Part shown: positions 16,718 through 24,695 of the stretch, one piece after another
How positions within the stretch are numbered: the first letter of the stretch is position 1
Layout: the number at the start of each line of letters is the position of its first letter
From: a virus
DNA length: 39,363 nucleotides
IMG/VR virus record: IMGVR_UViG_3300045999_004809
Span: 1-39,363 of that record
Direction: 5' to 3' (one strand)
Translations under genes and position numbers: made by a program
Notes under the pieces: generated by a model
Database searches by the model: none
What the model was told of the DNA's origin: nothing
Seen by the model: only the letters and a program-made list of their open reading frames with translations

Positions 16718-18571
16718 CTAAAGAGTCACAAACATGCGGTCACGTTCAAACGAGTTCAAGTCCACCGTGGCCTGGGTGGAACGGTCATACTTCGTGGCGA
16801 AAGGGTTGTTCACGTGGGAGCGGGAGAAGTTCGTCATCGCCGCCACACGATCCCGGCACGCCAGTTCCGCGAACCACAACGCCATCACCGCGTCAGTCTT
16901 CTGCGTCTTCGGCGCAGCCGGATGCCACGTCACCAACTGCTCCACCAGAGCCTTCGTGGATTCCGACACGTGCGTGGAGGGCAGTTCAACAAGCTGGCGC
17001 TTGTCCTGCCACCCCGAAAACAACGTCGTCATCGAGGCCACACCGAAGTCCACGTCATGCTTATTCGCGCCCGTGAAATGCTCCCGCAGGATCGCACCCG
17101 CCCCCGCCAGGTACTCCCTGACCTCACGGTCCTGGGTGAGCATCGACTGGAAGGCGTTCTTCTCCACCCGCCACTCGATAATCCCGTACTTCGATGTCCA
17201 GTCACGGATCATCTGCCGGATCGCATCCGGCGTCATCGCCGGCTTATTCCACACATCCAGCACGTACCGCTTCTGGGTCACCGGATCCAGGCCGATCACC
17301 ACCGCAGCGGTGTGACCCGCCATCGCAGGGTCCAGGCCGGCAACCACGAGCAGCCCATCCATCCCATCCGGGCGGCAATTCGCCATCCCGCGAGGCATGA
17401 CCCCCGCCAGACGATTCCCATTAATCGCGCCACGGACAGCATCAGGATGGAACACGGCATCATCGGACACCTGCTGCTGCATGTACACCATCGCCCACGT
17501 GCGCGGGGCGATCCGGGCACGCTTCTTCGCCAGACGCGGCCCATTCCACTTCGGGAACAAACCATCCTCGTCCGGGTCGGCGTCCTTCTCCGTCGGATCC
17601 GGGTGATTCGTGCGCGGCCACAACGTCACCCAATCCTCAGGGCTGTCCGCTGTCTCCAACACCGCCGGCATCGACAAATACGTCCACGGCGAATCCTCTT
17701 CCGGGTAGCGAGTCGGATCCCGCAGCTCGGAATACAAATCCTTACCCGACAGGCGAGTGCCCACCACCAGCAGCATCCCATTCGCCGACAGGCGCGACAT
17801 CACCTCAGCCTGCAACCAGTCAATCTGCTTCTCGTACTCGTGCGCGTTCGTCAAATCAACCGCGTCATCCACAATCACAATGTCCGCACGCGCACCAAAA
17901 ATGTGCCCTCGAATACCCAGCGCCTGGACGGTCGGGTCCTTCTCACCCGAATCCCGAGCCTCCCCCGACACGTAAATCAAGTCCTGCGTCCACGACGCAT
18001 CCGACGACTCGAACCCCCCGGCGGGAGCGTAATGCGCGTGCATCTCCGTGAACTTCGGATGCGTCAACCGCGTCTTCACCGCGTACAAAAACTTCCGCGC
18101 CATCGCCTGAGTCTTCGACACAATAATCACGCGAATATTCGGATCCATCGCAATCCGATACGTCACATAATTAATCGTCAACGTCACCGACTTGCCATGC
18201 TCCGGAGGCATATTCACAATCGCCAGATCACGCTCACCCGGCTCGAACACAATCCCCGCAGGAGTCCACGAAGGGGCACGCCCCTCCATCAAATCCACCA
18301 CATTCTCCATATGCGGAAAAACCCGCATACCCAAAAACCGCTCCGAAAACTCCGGAAACCCCAGCTTCAGCGGCCCCACCCGCTGACGCATCCCCCGAAC
18401 CTCATCCACCCGCTGCGCGAAAACCGGATCCTCACGCCGCCACCGCTCATACGCCGACAACGTGCGACCCGCACGAACCAGCGACGCCTCCACCGTCAAC
18501 CCATCCGCAATCGACTTCAACACCAGTTGCTTCAACTCGGCAACAGAAACCGACTTCGAACGACCCGACAT
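16718..18571 (-). CDS. terL: Terminase large subunit with N-terminal HTH-like segment
   Basis: This 617-residue packaging motor has an ATPase and a nuclease half. A Walker A variant lies at about residues 121-129 (MPPEHGKSV) and Walker B at about 230-237 (IVIVDDAVD). The nuclease domain begins at about residue 410 (VAGLDPAMAGHTAAVVIGLDP), with later acidic residues in a RNase H fold pattern. The first 60 residues (ELKQLVLKSIADGLTVEASLV...YERW) resemble the helix-turn-helix DNA-binding end of a small terminase. No separate small subunit gene is seen in the window. The gene follows a structured leader, and the portal gene follows immediately. Confidence 0.85.
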   Translation of the reverse strand: MSGRSKSVSVAELKQLVLKSIADGLTVEASLVRAGRTLSAYERWRREDPVFAQRVDEVRGMRQRVGPLKLGFPEFSERFLGMRVFPHMENVVDLMEGRAPSWTPAGIVFEPGERDLAIVNMPPEHGKSVTLTINYVTYRIAMDPNIRVIIVSKTQAMARKFLYAVKTRLTHPKFTEMHAHYAPAGGFESSDASWTQDLIYVSGEARDSGEKDPTVQALGIRGHIFGARADIVIVDDAVDLTNAHEYEKQIDWLQAEVMSRLSANGMLLVVGTRLSGKDLYSELRDPTRYPEEDSPWTYLSMPAVLETADSPEDWVTLWPRTNHPDPTEKDADPDEDGLFPKWNGPRLAKKRARIAPRTWAMVYMQQQVSDDAVFHPDAVRGAINGNRLAGVMPRGMANCRPDGMDGLLVVAGLDPAMAGHTAAVVIGLDPVTQKRYVLDVWNKPAMTPDAIRQMIRDWTSKYGIIEWRVEKNAFQSMLTQDREVREYLAGAGAILREHFTGANKHDVDFGVASMTTLFSGWQDKRQLVELPSTHVSESTKALVEQLVTWHPAAPKTQKTDAVMALWFAELACRDRVAAMTNFSRSHVNNPFATKYDRSTQATVDLNSFERDRMFVTL

Positions 18572-19314: not shown

Positions 19315-19884
19315 ATGTCGGAGTCGACGTTAGATATGAGGGCGTTGGGGGATGCGATCCGCGGTGCGGGTTTCCCTGTTCGGATTGAATCGACGGGGGG
19401 TGGTTGCGCCACGATGTATGTGGGGGTGTGTGTGAATCCTGACACGGTGGACGATGCGCTTAGGTTTCCTGTCGTGTTGGGTCCGGGGGTTTTTGATCGT
19501 GATGGGGCATGGGCCGATTGGGAGGATTTCTATGTCGGTCCGGACAATGACGATGCCGATGGGATTGTGACGGATGCCACGTGGACGATTGAGCGGGCTG
19601 TCGATGTCGTGCGTGAGAATTTCGCACGGTGGGAGAATGCGACACGGGAATTCGTGGCGGCATACGGTGAGGTGACCGCGGTGACGTCTCCGACATTGAC
19701 CGCGGGGGAATTGGTCCGCATCCTGTCGGCATTGCCTGCCGATACGCCCGTGATCATGGTGATCGCGGATACCGATCACGCGTGCAACGTGACGGGCATC
19801 GACGTCGAATATGACGGGAATGATCACGCCGCGGATATCGCGGTGATCGCGTGTGCCGATAACTACGATCCGCGTCAATGGTGA
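19315..19884 (+). CDS. Acidic early protein of unknown function
   Basis: This 189-residue protein starts at ATG 19315, five bases after AGGGGG. It is rich in Asp, Val, Ala and Thr with a low pI. The C-terminal 60 residues (LTAGELVRILSALPADTPVIM...) resemble a short domain common in phage and bacterial proteins, in which a helix LxxxLxxLPxDTPV leads into a beta hairpin. The N-terminal half, with a CATMYVGVCV strand, is not recognised. It is first in the rightward module and so likely the earliest expressed. Acidic early phage proteins can mimic DNA, but here that is only a possibility. Confidence 0.55.
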   Translation: MSESTLDMRALGDAIRGAGFPVRIESTGGGCATMYVGVCVNPDTVDDALRFPVVLGPGVFDRDGAWADWEDFYVGPDNDDADGIVTDATWTIERAVDVVRENFARWENATREFVAAYGEVTAVTSPTLTAGELVRILSALPADTPVIMVIADTDHACNVTGIDVEYDGNDHAADIAVIACADNYDPRQW

Positions 19885-19895
19885 GGGGGAGCGTC

Positions 19896-20681
19896 ATGCT
19901 GAGAACGGTGGAATTGGAGCGTCGCGGGATTATCGATCCGGGGTGTCCTATTCATGGGCGGCGCGTGTGGGGGGAGATCCGGGCACGTCACGGTCTACGC
20001 CCCGATAACGGATCTAGTCTGCTCACGTTGCCATCGGCGCAACCTAAGGTGGGCAAGAATTACCGACCGACCGCGAGTGTGACGTTGCTTGCTGGGACGG
20101 ATGGGGGATTGTGCGTGTCGGACACGCATTGTCGCGCTACGTGTGTGGTGAATGAATCGATGAGGGCTCAGTATGCGAATGTTCGTGCGGCGCGTGCGGC
20201 GCGGACGGATTTCCTGACGGAACGCCCGGACCTATTTCTAGGGTTGTTGTTGGATCGGATGCAATGGGCGCACGATAGGCATGGGATCCTCGATGTCCGA
20301 CCGAATGCGAATTCGGATGTCGCGTGGGAGCGCATCGCCCCAGCTCTTTTTGCGCTGATTGCAACGTGGGACGGACGTGCCTATGACTACACGAAAAGGA
20401 TAGATCGCGTGGGTTTCCTTGCGGAGAATTATCGGACGACGTTTTCCGTGACGCGTCACACGCGTCCCGATACGGTCGCTCGAATCACGGGCCGGGGGGA
20501 CACGGTGACCGCGGTTTTCCCATCACTAGCACCGCTACCCGCGGTGTGGCGCGGTCTTGACGTTGTCGATGGGGACGTGACGGATGACAGGTTTTCGGAT
20601 CCGGCCGGCACGGTCGTCGGACTGTTGGGTAAGGGAAAGCTGCGGGGGGTGCTCGAGCATCCGCTGATTGTGCGTGCCTAG
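19896..20681 (+). CDS. GP88-like phage protein
   Basis: The start is set at ATG 19896, which follows GAGGGGGAG. An ATG 18 bases upstream overlaps the previous stop and lacks a site. The 261-residue protein has the recognisable pattern of the GP88 family of actinophages and plasmids. In order these are LPSAQPKVGKN, a Cys/His cluster (CVSDTHCRATC), an ARAARTDFL helix, a LDVRPNANSDVAWE segment corresponding to the RLNGTSDIxWE motif, and YDYTKR followed by YRTTFSVTR. I recall no settled biochemical function for the family. The Cys/His cluster suggests metal binding. Placement in the early rightward module is typical. Confidence 0.7.
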   Translation: MLRTVELERRGIIDPGCPIHGRRVWGEIRARHGLRPDNGSSLLTLPSAQPKVGKNYRPTASVTLLAGTDGGLCVSDTHCRATCVVNESMRAQYANVRAARAARTDFLTERPDLFLGLLLDRMQWAHDRHGILDVRPNANSDVAWERIAPALFALIATWDGRAYDYTKRIDRVGFLAENYRTTFSVTRHTRPDTVARITGRGDTVTAVFPSLAPLPAVWRGLDVVDGDVTDDRFSDPAGTVVGLLGKGKLRGVLEHPLIVRA

Positions 20682-20713
20682 ATTGCAACGTGTGTCCGTG
20701 GCGCGTCCGTTAT

Positions 20714-20754
20714 CCCCCGGCATGGGTCGGGGGGTAGCGGTCCCGGGACGGACC
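20714..20754 (+). promoter_or_regulatory. Two hairpins in the leader of the 96-residue gene
   Basis: CCCCCG (20714-20719) pairs with CGGGGG (20728-20733), and GGTCC (20739-20743) pairs with GGACC (20750-20754). They fill the gap after the GP88-like gene and precede the next ribosome site. No U-tract follows, so partial termination, processing or stabilisation are possible roles. Confidence 0.4.
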
Positions 20755-20781
20755 TGGGGTATCGGTTAGGGGGTGGTTGTG

Positions 20782-21072
20782 ATGGACATCTATTGCGGAC
20801 GGTGCGGAGAGCCGTGGGAGATCGAGTCATTGCACGAGGAGACGGATTATCGCCGGAGTGAGGGGGAGTCGGTCACGGTGTCGCGTGTGCGCGCCGATTT
20901 CGCGGCCCGGGGGTGTGTCGCGTTTTCTTTCGCGACGGATACGCAATGCGAGCTGGACACGGGGAACGTGCGTGCGATGGCTAGCGGTGCGCTGATGGAT
21001 TTGCTGGGGGATGACATCGATGGGGTGGCGGCGTTGCTCGATGATGCCGAGGCTTTCGGAATGTTTCGGTAG
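20782..21072 (+). CDS. Small zinc-ribbon-like actinophage protein
   Basis: The start is ATG 20782, about seven bases after GGGGGTGG. An upstream GTG in the same frame lies within the ribosome site. The 96-residue protein opens MDIYCGRCGEPWEIESLHEE, a CxxC followed by Trp and His. It continues with an acidic middle and FAARGCVAFSF, a pattern common in actinobacterial phage proteins of unknown function. The C-terminus is acidic and helical (LMDLLGDDIDGVAALLDDAEAF). A structural zinc site is likely from the Cys spacing. Confidence 0.6.
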   Translation: MDIYCGRCGEPWEIESLHEETDYRRSEGESVTVSRVRADFAARGCVAFSFATDTQCELDTGNVRAMASGALMDLLGDDIDGVAALLDDAEAFGMFR

Positions 21073-21084
21073 GGGGTGGAATCG

Positions 21085-21288
21085 ATGACGACTTTCTACG
21101 TGTGGTCATTCGCGGTCGGGCTTTTCCTCGTGCCGGCGCTACTCCTGGCGGGTTTCTCGTGGGCGCTCGAGCGACCGGGGATCACGGACCGGGGCATCAC
21201 TAGCACGGTGGCAGGTTTCGCCGTGTTGGCGGCGGGTTTCGTGACGTTGTGGGCGTGGATTCTTCCGACTCCGGGGGAGCTTTCCTAG
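21085..21288 (+). CDS. Small two-helix membrane protein
   Basis: This 67-residue protein starts at ATG 21085 after TAGGGGGTGG. Two hydrophobic segments are evident: about residues 5-24 (VWSFAVGLFLVPALLLAGFS) and about residues 38-61 (TVAGFAVLAAGFVTLWAWIL). The linker is charged (ALERPGITDRG). It is likely an inner-membrane protein made early, possibly altering the host envelope or excluding other phages, but the function is unknown. A strong hairpin follows its stop. Confidence 0.55.
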   Translation: MTTFYVWSFAVGLFLVPALLLAGFSWALERPGITDRGITSTVAGFAVLAAGFVTLWAWILPTPGELS

Positions 21289-21297
21289 GTGCGGAGT

Positions 21298-21324
21298 GTC
21301 GCCCACGTCTCGCACGTGGGCGAC
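21298..21324 (+). terminator. Perfect 11-bp hairpin after the membrane protein gene
   Basis: GTCGCCCACGT, loop CTCGC, ACGTGGGCGAC form a perfect stem ten bases after the stop at 21288. There is no U-run, but such GC-rich stems can end transcripts in actinomycetes. It would separate the first four genes from the microprotein genes that follow. Confidence 0.6.
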
Positions 21325-21363
21325 GCCCTGCCACTAGGGGCAGGCAATAGGTGAGGGGGAGTG

Positions 21364-21504
21364 ATGGCAGATATCGGAGCGTCTTGGGATCCGATCACGG
21401 GGACCGTGTCGGTGGATCCGTGCCCGGATTGTGGTGCGGGTAGTGGGGTGCCGTGTGCGTGGGCATGCTCGAGCAATTGGGATCCCGAGGGGGTGTCGTC
21501 GTGA
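21364..21504 (+). CDS. 46-residue Cys-rich microprotein
   Basis: The ATG at 21364 follows GAGGGGGAGTG, and the TGA at 21502-21504 overlaps the next GTG. The sequence reads MADIGASWDPITG and then DPCPDCGAGSGVPCAWACSS. Four Cys in CxxC...CxxxC spacing suggest one zinc site, similar to small Zn fingers of other actinophages. The strong ribosome site and coupled stop/start support expression. Confidence 0.5.
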   Translation: MADIGASWDPITGTVSVDPCPDCGAGSGVPCAWACSSNWDPEGVSS

Positions 21505-21644
21505 CGGGCTCGAGGATTAATCGGGACGGGACGGTGCTGCACTACGGGTCGCCAGGATTCGACGGACAGTGCGACTACGAGGGATGTCGTGGGCACGTCC
21601 GCACGGGCCGCTACTGCTGGTCACACGCACGGGGGAGGGGGTGA
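21501..21644 (+). CDS. 47-residue zinc-finger-like microprotein
   Basis: The GTG at 21501 overlaps the upstream TGA and follows GAGGGGGT. The protein holds CDYEGCRGHVRTGRYCWSH, a C-x4-C...C-x2-H arrangement. It resembles the small zinc knuckle (CxxxxCxxxxxxxGYCxxH) often found fused to phage HNH nucleases, but here it stands alone. It may have been cut loose from such a protein or act as a nucleic-acid-binding peptide. A more upstream in-frame ATG at 21465 is possible but has no ribosome site. Confidence 0.5.
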   Translation: MTGSRINRDGTVLHYGSPGFDGQCDYEGCRGHVRTGRYCWSHARGRG

Positions 21645-21648
21645 GCTG

Positions 21649-21888
21649 ATGTCGCGCAGACGTACCCCGAGGCAGGTGCTGGGGCCGACTGGTGGGGCTT
21701 GGGTTCGGATGGCTCCGGGGTGGTATCGCCACGAGGAGACGCGCTACCGGGTGATGAGGGTCGGGAATTTGTGGCACGTGTGGGGTGGAAGGTGGGACGG
21801 TGCCGCATTCAGGACATTGTGGGCGGCGCAGACGATGGTGGAGGGGGCAGGCCAGCTCGGGGATTACCGGGTCGGATCGCAGGACTAG
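21649..21888 (+). CDS. Small basic protein of unknown function
   Basis: This 79-residue protein starts at ATG 21649 after GAGGGGGTGAGC. The N-terminus is basic (MSRRRTPRQV). The rest is rich in Trp, Gly and Arg (WVRMAPGWYRHEETRYRVMR, WHVWGGRWDG), suggesting a small beta barrel. No family is recognised. It is the last gene before a 200-bp control segment. Confidence 0.5.
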   Translation: MSRRRTPRQVLGPTGGAWVRMAPGWYRHEETRYRVMRVGNLWHVWGGRWDGAAFRTLWAAQTMVEGAGQLGDYRVGSQD

Positions 21889-21963
21889 CACGATGTCGGA
21901 GTGTCGGTATATGTTGCATGCAATATGTGACTATGATTGTGTGACCGGGAGGGGGTGAACGGA

Positions 21964-21999
21964 ATGAACCATCGCTGCCGCGCATCAATGATCGACTAG
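21964..21999 (+). CDS. 11-residue upstream open reading frame (leader peptide candidate)
   Basis: MNHRCRASMID runs from ATG 21964 to TAG 21997-21999. It is preceded by GGGAGGGGG, one of the strongest ribosome sites in the window, which a 14-residue version from GTG 21955 overlaps. A -10-like TATGAT lies about 30 bases upstream. Directly after the stop comes a long-looped hairpin. The arrangement resembles a translation-sensing attenuator. The peptide itself may be unimportant. Confidence 0.4.
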   Translation: MNHRCRASMID

Positions 22000-22014
22000 T
22001 TCTGGCTCCATCAT

Positions 22015-22059
22015 CCCCGGAGGTGCGGGTTTCGTACCCCCTCGAGATCCCCTCCGGGG
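22015..22059 (+). promoter_or_regulatory. Hairpin between leader peptide and downstream genes
   Basis: CCCCGGAGG (22015-22023) pairs perfectly with CCTCCGGGG (22051-22059). The loop contains a smaller GGG/CCC stem (near 22028-22040). The 5' arm contains GGAGG, so pairing could hide a ribosome-site-like sequence. The element precedes the gene block that contains the Lsr2-like and WhiB proteins. Confidence 0.45.
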
Positions 22060-22099
22060 GTGGTGGTGGCAGCACTAGCACGAGCTGGAAGGAATGCGG

Positions 22100-22330
22100 A
22101 TGGTGTTTCAGCGGGTTGTGGCGACGCTCATCGAGCGGCCCCCGGATGGGTTCATGGTGACGTTCACCGATTCTGATGGTGCCCCGGACACGATTGTGTC
22201 GTGGTTCGCGCATGACATGGACGGTGCGTTGGATTGGGTGGAGACGGTGGTGCAGCAGTCCACGCTGGTTGTGGCACCACTAGCCCAGGATGGTGCCTAC
22301 TCGGTGTCGGTACTCGAGGATGAGGCATGA
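22100..22330 (+). CDS. Small hypothetical protein
   Basis: The ATG at 22100 fits GGAAGGA seven bases upstream. The ATG at 22094 is in frame but almost touches that site. The 76-residue product (MVFQRVVATLIERPPDG...) has alternating strands (FMVTFTDSDG, TIVSWFAHDM) and a helix (GALDWVETVVQQS), the pattern of a small alpha/beta protein. The stop overlaps the next ATG. No family is recognised. Confidence 0.5.
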   Translation: MVFQRVVATLIERPPDGFMVTFTDSDGAPDTIVSWFAHDMDGALDWVETVVQQSTLVVAPLAQDGAYSVSVLEDEA

Positions 22331-22449
22331 CTAGCAGGGGGAAGCCGGCCTTGTTCGGCTGGTGCATTGATGACTTGCACGAGAAGTGCATTGTGTGGTT
22401 GGTGAATTCGGATCGGCGGTGCGCCTGCACCTGCCATGACAACAAGTAG
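22327..22449 (+). CDS. 40-residue Cys/His microprotein
   Basis: The ATG at 22327 overlaps the preceding TGA (ATGA). The sequence includes FGWCIDDLHEKCIVWLV and CACTCHDNK, giving five Cys and two His arranged for zinc binding. The pattern CxxxxxxxxC...CxCxCH resembles one-zinc ribbons of other actinophages. Coupling and strand agree with neighbours. Confidence 0.5.
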   Translation: MTSRGKPALFGWCIDDLHEKCIVWLVNSDRRCACTCHDNK

Positions 22450-22458
22450 GAGAAGGTA

Positions 22459-22701
22459 ATGGATTCGACATCGATTGAGGAATACCCGCACGTGATGGTC
22501 CCGTCGTGGACTCCGGCGGTTCAGCCCGAGGTTGCGCCCGTGGTGGATGAGGCACCAGCCCCTACCCCCACCACTAGCAGCACTAGCAAGGTGGATTCGC
22601 GTGCGATTCGTGCCTGGGCGAGGAGCCAGGGCATCGAGGTGGGTGCCCGTGGGCGCATTAAGCCTGAGGTGATTGCAAGGTATACCGAGGCGATGCAGTA
22701 A
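22459..22701 (+). CDS. Lsr2-like C-terminal DNA-binding domain protein
   Basis: In this 80-residue protein, residues 46-80 (IRAWARSQGIEVGARGRIKPE and on) match the C-terminal DNA-binding domain of the actinobacterial silencer Lsr2. The match covers the IRxWARxxGxxV helix and the RGRI loop that enters the minor groove of AT-rich DNA. The N-terminal dimerisation domain of Lsr2 is absent. In its place is a flexible Pro/Ala/Thr/Ser stretch of about 40 residues. Such a protein could compete with host Lsr2 for binding and so relieve silencing of phage DNA, or could act as a phage silencer if it oligomerises otherwise. The start ATG is nine bases after GGAGAAGG. The stop overlaps the WhiB start. Confidence 0.75.
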   Translation: MDSTSIEEYPHVMVPSWTPAVQPEVAPVVDEAPAPTPTTSSTSKVDSRAIRAWARSQGIEVGARGRIKPEVIARYTEAMQ

Positions 22702-23000
22702 TGCGCTACCCGGAATTCGACGGCACGCAACAGTGCTCGTCCATCGGCACGAGCTTGTTCTACCCGGACAACCCATCGAACGTGACGGTGATGGAGAAGC
22801 AGATCATTCACCAGACCTGCTACTCGTGCCGTATCCAGTCGCAGTGCCTGGAGTGGGGGCTGCGGCATGAGGAGTATGGGTATTGGGGTGGGTTGTCACC
22901 GAATCAGCGGCGTGAGCTGCGACGGAAGGTGGGGATCCGGCTCGAGGTGGTGCCGGTGACGGCGTATGTGGGGCTTCAGAACGTGAAGCAGGCGTCGTGA
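22701..23000 (+). CDS. WhiB-family Fe-S transcription regulator
   Basis: The 99-residue protein carries the four WhiB cysteines at residues 12, 40, 43 and 49 (C...CxxCxxxxxC). The turn YWGGLSPNQR at 61-70 matches the family's G(V/I)WGG motif, and basic residues follow (RRELRRK). WhiB proteins bind a [4Fe-4S] cluster and act with the primary sigma factor. Phage versions are known, for example TM4 WhiBTM4, which interferes with host WhiB2. The ATG overlaps the stop of the Lsr2-like gene, so the two regulators are co-translated. The stop overlaps the next GTG. Confidence 0.85.
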   Translation: MRYPEFDGTQQCSSIGTSLFYPDNPSNVTVMEKQIIHQTCYSCRIQSQCLEWGLRHEEYGYWGGLSPNQRRELRRKVGIRLEVVPVTAYVGLQNVKQAS

Positions 23001-23137
23001 TCTGCCCCCATTGCCGAGCAGGTGGTGACCTGAACGGCCTGGGTGACAGGTTTGGTGCTACCCAGGCGCATCTGCGCTGCACGGACCTGAATTGTTCGTG
23101 CCAGCACGATGTGGGTGACAGGTGGGTGCGTGTCTAA
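22997..23137 (+). CDS. 46-residue zinc-ribbon microprotein
   Basis: The GTG at 22997 overlaps the WhiB stop. The sequence reads VICPHCRAGGDLNG, then LRCTDLNCSCQHDVGDRW. The CxxC...CxxxxxCxC spacing fits a zinc ribbon like that of small transcription-elongation or phage Zn-ribbon proteins. It ends at TAA 23135-23137 and overlaps the next start. Confidence 0.5.
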   Translation: MICPHCRAGGDLNGLGDRFGATQAHLRCTDLNCSCQHDVGDRWVRV

Positions 23138-23354
23138 GCCCGTGAAGGTGGCCTTCAATGAGATCCCTGACGGCCCGGACTATTCGTGGGCTGGTCCGCA
23201 GCACACGTGCCTGTGTGGCAACGACACGCTCGCTGTTGCTGCCCGTTTCGATGACAACAGGATCAGCTTCTATTTCTTGGATGCGAGGTGTTTGAGTTGC
23301 GGATCCTATTTAACCGTGCCGACCGAAGCAGACGACGAGCCATGCACGGCGTGA
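23130..23354 (+). CDS. Small zinc-ribbon-like protein
   Basis: The start is set at GTG 23130, which follows CAGGTGGGTGC. An upstream ATG in the same frame lies deep in the previous gene. The 74-residue protein has two Cys knuckles, CLCGND (near residue 27) and CLSCGSY (near 56), separated by about 27 residues with strands (AVAARFDDNRISFYFLDAR). That is a typical four-Cys zinc ribbon. The function is unknown. Confidence 0.5.
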   Translation: MSKPVKVAFNEIPDGPDYSWAGPQHTCLCGNDTLAVAARFDDNRISFYFLDARCLSCGSYLTVPTEADDEPCTA

Positions 23355-23539
23355 TCGGCACAGGGGATTCCTCGAATCGCATGTGGTGGAACCTGGGTGC
23401 GCGTGCCATGAAGGATCACATGCTGCGGGAGTTCACCTCGTGGGCGATCTCATGCCCGAATAGGGAAACCGCTGACGACCTGTGGGATTTCATCATTAAG
23501 GCGAGGGAGGTGAACGTTGATTTCGACACTCACGCCTGA
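23342..23539 (+). CDS. Small hypothetical protein
   Basis: This 65-residue frame is taken from ATG 23342, which overlaps the previous stop. An internal ATG at 23381 is an alternative. It is helical and Trp-rich (MWWNLGARAMKDHMLREF, SWAISCPNRETADDLWDF). No family is recognised. Its end overlaps the TTG start of the next small gene. Confidence 0.45.
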   Translation: MHGVIGTGDSSNRMWWNLGARAMKDHMLREFTSWAISCPNRETADDLWDFIIKAREVNVDFDTHA

Positions 23540-23627
23540 GGAGAAGCAGTTCTTGAACTATCAGGAGGCGGTGATCTATTCGATGATCGCCGACCGTTAC
23601 GACCGTGAAGACCCGGACGATTTCTAG
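23517..23627 (+). CDS. 36-residue microprotein with TTG start
   Basis: TTG at 23517 follows a very strong GGGAGGTG. The frame reads ISTLTPEEKQFLNYQEAVIY and ends DREDPDDF. It is acidic and helical. It is kept because of the ribosome site, overlap with the upstream gene and in-module strand. Confidence 0.45.
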   Translation: MISTLTPEEKQFLNYQEAVIYSMIADRYDREDPDDF

Positions 23628-23642
23628 ATTGGAGTGATTGCA

Positions 23643-23879
23643 ATGAGTGTCAAGAGTGACGCGTCCATTGGCGTGTATCTGGATGCGGAGAAGGCGACCG
23701 TGCGGGATGTGCGTGACTGGCTAGCCGAGGTGAACCGGCTGAACATCCCTGACAGTGCCCCGCTGGACGAGTGTGTCCTGTCCCTGTACCACCGCAGTCA
23801 GGTTCTCGAGTCTGTCCTCACGGAGTCATCTCTTGGTGTTGAGGGTTGGGACATCCTCGTGGGATTGTCACGTGTTTGA
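23643..23879 (+). CDS. Small hypothetical protein
   Basis: This 78-residue protein starts at ATG 23643, seven bases after GGAGTG. It is a mixed alpha/beta sequence (MSVKSDASIGVYLDAEKATV, RDWLAEVNRLNIPD). The N-terminal strand-helix order, with a Ser/Thr/Asp-rich loop, resembles a small family in other actinophages, but I cannot name it. It contains one Cys. Its stop overlaps the GTG of the next gene. Confidence 0.5.
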   Translation: MSVKSDASIGVYLDAEKATVRDVRDWLAEVNRLNIPDSAPLDECVLSLYHRSQVLESVLTESSLGVEGWDILVGLSRV

Positions 23880-24036
23880 GGATTGCTTCTGGTGTGCAGG
23901 CTCCCTCAACAACGAGGGGGTCTGCACATCGTGCGCTTCAATCTTCCCAGTCTTCCCAGATATCCATCGGCTGCTGCCTGAAGGCGACAAGGATGGTGCC
24001 GACAGTCCAGCCGGCGAGCAACCCAAGCACACCTAA
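23872..24036 (+). CDS. Zinc-ribbon microprotein that overlaps an opposing gene
   Basis: GTG 23872 overlaps the previous TGA. The 54-residue frame begins VFEDCFWCAGSLNNEGVCTSC, two CxxC knuckles twelve residues apart, a compact zinc ribbon. The rest is hydrophilic and ends in QPKHT. Its last 99 bases are antisense to a small membrane protein gene (23938-24069). The first 25 codons look genuine. The C-terminal half may be passively open. Confidence 0.45.
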   Translation: MFEDCFWCAGSLNNEGVCTSCASIFPVFPDIHRLLPEGDKDGADSPAGEQPKHT

Positions 24037-24077: not shown

Positions 24078-24695
24078 CTAAACCCACGGTGGTTCACCAC
24101 CGAGCTTGTCCGACAATTTCCTGAGCGCATTCCTGACACGACGCCGGATCGTGGACTCGTGAGCCTGGTAGGTGGCTGCGAGGATCTGCACATCCATCCC
24201 GCCATCAGCGAACCGGGCCTGCAAAAGTTCCTGATCCTCTTCGGTGAGTGAATCGAGAGCGAACTTCACATCGACCAGCATCGCCAGCCGAGTGTTGCCC
24301 TCACCGGGACGTGACTGTGTACGTCCGTCCGTGTCATCCTCGAACGTGTTGAGGATCCAGTTGTCGTAGTCGTACACGTCGGGAAGCAGCTCGTGCAGGA
24401 TCGCTTCGGAGTAGAACGCGTGGTCTTGCACCTGGGTGCGGGTGAGGATGGCTCGTTCCTTGGTTGCCCAGCGCATGCCGGCCCGGTAGAGGGCCGTGCC
24501 CAGCTTCCCTGTCCCGACCTTTCCTTCTTCCCGCCAGCGGGACAACTTGTCCGGGTGTGCAGCCATCCACAGGTACATCTCGGATCGGATGTCATCGAAC
24601 TCGAGCAGGAAGCGTTGATTCCTGTGGACTCGTTTCGCTACACCATTGGCGATACGGATTTCCGTATCGGTGACCGTGGCTTCGGCTACCGCCAT
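24078..24695 (-). CDS. Sigma-like / HTH DNA-binding protein
   Basis: The start is set at ATG 24695, seven bases after GGGGGTG and overlapping the metallophosphoesterase stop. The long in-frame extension upstream is a shadow. The 205-residue protein ends in a sigma region 4-like helix-turn-helix (LTEEDQELLQARF...AATYQAHESTIRRRVRNAL). The N-terminal half (HRNQRFLLEFDDIRSEMYLW) resembles the region-2-like part of short sigma-70 proteins found in actinophages. It may direct host RNA polymerase to later promoters. The absence of a clear promoter-melting region leaves a plain DNA-binding regulator as the alternative. Confidence 0.6.
   Translation of the reverse strand: MAVAEATVTDTEIRIANGVAKRVHRNQRFLLEFDDIRSEMYLWMAAHPDKLSRWREEGKVGTGKLGTALYRAGMRWATKERAILTRTQVQDHAFYSEAILHELLPDVYDYDNWILNTFEDDTDGRTQSRPGEGNTRLAMLVDVKFALDSLTEEDQELLQARFADGGMDVQILAATYQAHESTIRRRVRNALRKLSDKLGGEPPWV

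Follow-up and report, generated by a model that had tools for sequence, protein, structure and literature searches.

Do the short cysteine-rich open reading frames (ORFs) crowded into one part of a virus genome encode real proteins, and do these proteins work together on the transcription of the host? The question is raised by IMG/VR virus record IMGVR_UViG_3300045999_004809, analyzed here as one entire record of 39,363 bases (the window), in which a first-pass annotation had described eight such ORFs, together with two regulators of host type, between positions 20782 and 24036. The module to which they belong exceeds these coordinates, being a rightward run of small genes that spans 19.3-24.0 kb, and consists mostly of unnamed families. 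Known kinds of protein, namely a WhiB, an Lsr2 domain and zinc ribbons, occur in it in a new conserved combination. The run may represent a conserved host-takeover regulatory operon of mostly uncultured actinobacterial phages, an interpretation for which we consider the evidence evenly balanced. The eight ORFs and the Lsr2-domain gene are listed below; genes and proteins are referred to by their start positions.

20782..21072, + strand: protein of 96 amino acids, MDIYCxxCGEPW[D/E] family; 69 loci in viral contigs, no Pfam match
21364..21504, + strand: protein of 46 amino acids, CPDCGAGxGxxCxxxC, four conserved cysteines (Cys); Pfam PF24623 (Phage_zn_bind_8), E value (E) 0.003, below cut-off
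21501..21644, + strand: protein of 47 amino acids, Cx4Cx9CxxH, GTGA overlap with 21364; ratio of nonsynonymous to synonymous substitution rates (dN/dS) 0.06-0.23, 3/3 Cys kept
22327..22449, + strand: protein of 40 amino acids, GWC...C...CxCxCH, ATGA overlap with 22100; Cys cells kept 15/15 at 40-69% identity
22459..22701, + strand: Lsr2 DNA-binding domain with RGR; PF23359, E 9e-15, residues 43-78 only
22701..23000, + strand: WhiB-like protein of 99 amino acids, C12-x27-C40-x2-C43-x5-C49, GYWGG, basic tail; Pfam PF02467, E 2.8e-11
22997..23137, + strand: protein of 46 amino acids, CxxC...CxxxxCxCQH, start overlapping the WhiB stop; Cys conservation, members in relatives
23130..23354, + strand: zinc-ribbon protein of 74 amino acids, CxCG-x24-CxxCG (ZR family); conserved Cys, AlphaFold2 (AF2) model with a predicted local distance difference test (pLDDT) score of 88.7
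23872..24036, + strand: protein of 54 amino acids, CxxC-x9-CxxC, 8-bp overlap with 23643; Cys cells kept 32/32

Evidence that the cysteine-rich ORFs are selected genes

All eight ORFs were found at the starts given in the first-pass annotation, and its statement that several have fewer than 60 residues holds for 5 of the 8. The metal-site spacings it described are also present (CxxC in 20782, 21364, 22701, 22997, 23130 and 23872; CxxH, as CWSH, in 21501; CACTCH in 22327), as are the coupling overlaps (GTGA at 21501 and 22997, ATGA at 22327), to which can be added TAATG at 22701 and overlaps of 8 bp at 23130 and 23872. Its term "array" is misleading, given that the eight belong to different families without significant mutual similarity: the best non-self match among them has E 0.08 over 7 residues. 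They are not copies of one another, and tandem duplication was therefore rejected as their origin.

Cysteine accounts for 6.8% of the residues in the eight ORFs and for 0.61% of those encoded by 28 further genes in this genome; the eight also hold 7 CxxC pairs versus 1.9 in within-protein shuffles (p = 0.002). Nevertheless, wrong frames of the same G/T-rich stretch contain 2.3-4.6% Cys, so that composition alone was not accepted as proof; this same observation is what favors spurious ORFs, that is, chance Cys codons on a G/T-rich strand. The ORFs were judged real on conservation instead. In alignments with relatives of less than 92% identity, conservation extends to 175 of 178 Cys cells but to 1272 of 2384 other cells (53%), a contrast which is no probability given that the aligned relatives share kinship. 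In addition, nearly every useful comparison gives a dN/dS of less than 1 (mostly 0.1-0.7), the exceptions being based on very few changes. For the eight as a set, spurious ORFs are refuted by purifying selection and by Cys that do not vary even in relatives only about 30% identical, which leaves that explanation practically no weight. Conservation of the Cys residues among related phages, on which the first-pass annotation had staked its claim, is thus observed, and the eight are real, selected genes that retain their putative ligands. Invariant pairs of ligands of the zinc ribbon/finger class occur in 23130, 23872 and 21364, and the metal sites of the small Cys proteins are regarded as putative zinc sites.

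The WhiB and Lsr2-domain proteins

The two host-type regulators previously noted are both present, yet only the WhiB gene is one of the eight; the Lsr2-like gene (22459-22701) lies outside them and encodes no Cys. The 22701 protein scores 44.2 bits against PF02467, for which the curated cut-off is 23.6, and was matched to the solved PDB structures of WhiB, WhiB1, WhiB3 and WhiB7. Its C12, C40, C43 and C49, together with W and G residues, are invariant in 11 phages. By its sequence, it is a WhiB protein, in which GYWGG has Y instead of the V/I of the G[V/I]WGG turn and the C-terminal stretch RRELRRK is basic. With TM4-type actinophage WhiB (Wbl) proteins it shares the four-Cys cluster motif, the WGG turn, the basic tail and a PF02467 score over the cut-off. 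It differs from actinophage Wbl in its longer first Cys spacing (x27), in the modest identity of its best isolated-phage matches (about 36-39%), and in its setting, its stop overlapping the start of the next gene, which encodes a small zinc-site protein, within a conserved block of peptides.

The 22459 protein was matched to PDB 6qkp/2kng, and the first 42 of its residues form a disordered-looking arm rich in Pro, Ser, Thr and Ala. Since its Lsr2 match is confined to residues 43-78, it is termed here an Lsr2 DNA-binding-domain protein and not a full Lsr2. The C-terminal DNA-binding domain with RGR is common to phage-encoded Lsr2-type proteins, from which 22459 differs in having this domain alone behind the arm, no oligomerization domain being detected in it.

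The ZR family and the conserved gene block

Residues C27, C29, G30, D51, C54 and C57 of the ZR protein (23130) are invariant in 38 representative members of its family. When the ZR sequence was searched against the PDB, every match had E above 0.1. The ZR model matches three predicted viral proteins; RPB9-, TFIIS- and MqsA-like fold matches had E above 2 and were not used. Two other ZR members searched against isolated phages matched only one uncultured phage, in two records. In its CxC/CxxC layout ZR resembles the ribbons of DUF7160 (PF23718), phrog_1634 and Lar type, PF23718 and phrog_1634 having no described function. Weak matches to PF23718 or phrog_1634 were obtained for a few ZR members (for PF23718, 1 of 38, E 0.00042), whereas the ZR protein of the window matches none of these and stays below the Lar cut-off.

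The family falls into 26 clusters at 80% identity, of which 24 could be judged, and in 16 of these 24 a same-strand WhiB gene lies within 2.1 kb (14 upstream, 2 downstream). Most loci were fetched by ZR and not by WhiB, so that the WhiB neighbor was not selected for, even though the 16 clusters do not represent 16 independent events, many of the phages being mutually related. The order WhiB, 22997, 23130 (ZR), 23342, 23643, 23872, facing a sigma-70-region-4 gene, recurs in about nine divergent phage lineages. The block is whole or partial in L091, L019, L033, L093, L094, L095, L096 and L100, and L058, L051, L156 and L163 retain WhiB and ZR. The overlap between the WhiB stop and the 22997 start is found in the window, L003, L033 and L094, even though the identity of their WhiB proteins falls to about 40% in some pairs. 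In more distant phages other small Cys peptides fill the in-between slots. Isolated Nanopelagicales phages, E7 and F5, likewise bear both whiB and a gene for a phage sigma-70 factor (PMC10202952), zinc proteins going unmentioned in the text searched.

Bacterial homologues of ZR

The first bacterial homologue of ZR was found in an Actinomycetota metagenome-assembled genome (L234, 4655-6144), where it immediately follows genes for a FUR-family protein and a ZIP transporter. A strong ZR match occurs in 26 of 201 genomes of that order, at 27 places. A zip, zur-like or znuA gene stands beside ZR at all 25 evaluable places, the contig ending on that side at the remaining 2; the ZnuA, FUR and ZIP neighbors were confirmed with Pfam. 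The loci recorded for this arrangement are L234-L260 and L264. The genomes measure 0.9-1.4 Mb, a size that would suit Nanopelagicales, and the bacteria would be freshwater dwellers. In a wider sample of the class, a second lineage (L272-L276) comprises five genomes of 1.8-2.6 Mb with ZR directly behind an HU-type gene, identified as HU by Pfam in the three of the five genomes tested. The neighborhood of ZR thus hints at zinc uptake in one bacterial lineage and at the nucleoid protein HU in another, not at RNA polymerase. Phage and bacterial sequences are interleaved in the ZR tree, which forces at least 2 label changes and, having few columns, does not resolve the direction of exchange between phages and bacteria.

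The remaining small cysteine proteins

The 20782 protein contains Cys5, Cys8, Cys45 and Cys56, and a nearly invariant His18. D2, C5, C8, G9, E10, P11, W12 and C45 are invariant in 42 members of its family; the fourth ligand varies in distant members, C5, C8 and C45 remaining constant. Its AF2 model (pLDDT 90.5) consists of a small knuckle followed by helices, for which the best PDB fold match, a tRNA-dihydrouridine synthase (Z 3.5, 62 residues, root-mean-square deviation 3.5), was not taken as meaningful. The MDIYC/MPDIYCxxCGEPW family was also seen in many phage contigs (L182-L233), where the stretches read showed neither WhiB nor ZR nearby.

The 21364 protein has the CPDCGA-G-C core in common with Phage_zn_bind_8 (PF24623), from which it is set apart by an alignment of only 13 positions and a score of 17.7 bits that does not reach the cut-off of 24. 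Searches by tblastn of the 20782, 23130 and 21364 proteins against isolated phages gave no match. Members of 22997, 22327 and 23872 were each found again in relatives, those of the 22327 family in L094, L096, L099 and L047.

Possible roles of the module

Few regulators are as common in actinophages as WhiB and Lsr2, and phage TM4 encodes a WhiB that acts as a dominant negative on the expression of host whiB2 (PMC8612146). Region 4 of sigma-A, the main sigma factor, is bound by WhiB3 (PMC10245118), and foreign AT-rich DNA is silenced by Lsr2-like proteins (PMC7002338). It is this literature, combined with the anatomy of the locus, that leads to the takeover-operon interpretation. In such an operon, WhiB would carry an iron-sulfur (Fe-S) cluster and bind region 4 of the host or phage sigma factor, and in this way redirect or block promoters of the host. 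The lone Lsr2 domain would bind AT-rich DNA and, as it lacks the oligomerization domain needed to silence, could compete with host silencing as a counter-silencer. The other seven proteins would be small, their folds maintained by structural zinc, and would contribute to the takeover as adaptors for proteins or nucleic acids; 22997, which would be made together with WhiB, is its likeliest direct partner. The first-pass interpretation therefore stands as far as a conserved set of small metal-site proteins accompanying WhiB and an Lsr2 DNA-binding domain is concerned, whereas the joint action of WhiB, the Lsr2 domain and the small zinc adaptors on host transcription or RNA polymerase may be proposed but goes beyond what was observed.

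Several observations weigh against a takeover operon. No same-strand WhiB lies near ZR in 8 of the 24 clusters, and the 20782 family occurs at 63 loci whose fetched stretch contains neither WhiB nor ZR. PDB fold searches with the ZR and 20782 models gave no significant match, and the position of bacterial ZR relatives next to zinc-uptake genes or HU is not in itself a sign of transcription. The same occurrence of the 20782 family apart from WhiB suits a drawer of unrelated accessory genes, in which zinc (Fe-S in WhiB) would only stabilize folds and the proteins, each with a separate host target, would share nothing but their transcription. This explanation, which also accounts for the absence of paralogues among the eight and for distant relatives that retain only part of the set, the same slots being taken by other Cys peptides, is a less likely though serious contender. 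Conservation of the WhiB-to-23872 order in about nine lineages and the overlap of WhiB with 22997 speak against it, arguing for some joint use.

The bacterial data leave open that ZR at least may concern zinc itself. ZR could be a phage copy of a zinc-uptake-response protein in a zinc-handling module, with the peptides buffering or delivering zinc or disturbing host zinc sensing, as the neighbors of bacterial ZR at every evaluable place in the first lineage and the interleaved tree would suggest. We nonetheless consider such a module unlikely, as the second lineage has ZR beside HU and not zinc genes, the phage run holds neither a transporter nor a zinc regulator, and WhiB uses iron. Equally speculative is a combination of both ideas, in which a homologue of a bacterial zinc-uptake-locus protein would have been built into a WhiB operon, tying the takeover of transcription to the zinc status of the host; small zinc ribbons might then be cofactors of phage WhiB or zinc sensors/buffers, and bacterial ZR an undescribed member of the zinc-starvation response. 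An anti-defense function, resembling that of the small zinc protein Lar in restriction alleviation, seems very unlikely. The TIGR03655 (anti_R_Lar) scores that hint at it, 13.9 bits for the window ZR (E 0.051) and 19.7 bits for a bacterial ZR (E 0.0008), are far under the cut-off of 39.6, and zinc ribbons are all somewhat alike.

Phage WhiB proteins are common, yet the part played in infection has been investigated for only one of them (PMC8612146). If the run is a takeover operon, it offers concrete candidate partners for them, 22997 first and then 23130, with conserved ligands. The ZR family, for its part, connects environmental phages with a protein, as yet without a name, that streamlined actinobacteria encode next to their zinc-uptake genes; this cousin provides a first handle on the role of such peptides.

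Genome setting and neighboring genes

The large terminase is 47-48% identical to those of Streptomyces phages, including Manuel and Immanuel3; this likeness and the WhiB gene suggest that the host of the virus is an actinobacterium. Genes for the virion and packaging lie in leftward orientation up to position 18,571, and leftward replication and metabolism genes extend from 24,078 onward. A DNA-level search of isolated phages found nothing similar across the rightward run. Besides the genes listed above, the run and its border contain:

19878..20681, + strand: member of the gp88 family, located farther upstream within the rightward run; Pfam PF17338, E 5e-24
21085..21288, + strand: conserved small hydrophobic protein of 67 amino acids; dN/dS about 0.3
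21649..21888, + strand: conserved protein of 79 amino acids without Cys; ORF call and dN/dS comparison
22100..22330, + strand: protein of 76 amino acids without Cys; ORF call and dN/dS comparison
23342..23539, + strand: protein of 65 amino acids, conserved neighbor of ZR; dN/dS comparison and synteny
23517..23627, + strand: ORF of 36 amino acids, limited to near relatives; ORF call and dN/dS comparison
23643..23879, + strand: protein of 78 amino acids with one conserved Cys, widely retained in the module; synteny
24078..24692, - strand: sigma-70 region 4 protein, convergent with the module and in the same position in relatives; PF04545, E 1.4e-7

Candidate control elements

Four non-coding or motif features were recorded in the run:

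20519..22590, + strand: directed motif GGCA[GT][GC]ACTAGCACGG, eight copies with cores at 20525, 21199, 21884, 22074, 22279, 22330, 22573 and 22582
21284..21338, + strand: intergenic hairpin between 21085 and 21364, folding free energy (dG) about -42; in L003 and L091 the stems differ in sequence but still pair
21885..21950, + strand: strongly conserved intergenic stretch with the palindrome ATGTTGCATGCAATAT (21911-21926) and TATGAT
21996..22078, + strand: structured leader ahead of 22100 and later genes, dG about -58; kept in L004, L091 and L019

The gap of 211 bases before 22100 holds both the palindrome and the leader hairpin. The stretch at 21885-21950 is a putative promoter/operator. A scan for sigma-70 promoters found sites no commoner than in shuffles. 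The leader, which matched no family in an Rfam search, is confined to near relatives, and its hairpin shows three compensated pairs across four sequences. Together with the ACTAGC motif copies, it would probably serve to control the operon.

A matrix trained only on relatives ranks the eight motif copies above all other places in the genome, where the motif is almost absent. Part of this signal reflects shared descent, L003 and L091 being close in the motif stretch. L091 has 6 copies and L019 (68-85% DNA identity) has 11, some without a counterpart in the window. In both, all copies point in the gene direction and fall in coding (several frames) as well as non-coding DNA, and the motif looks like stoperator-type or RNA-level sites.

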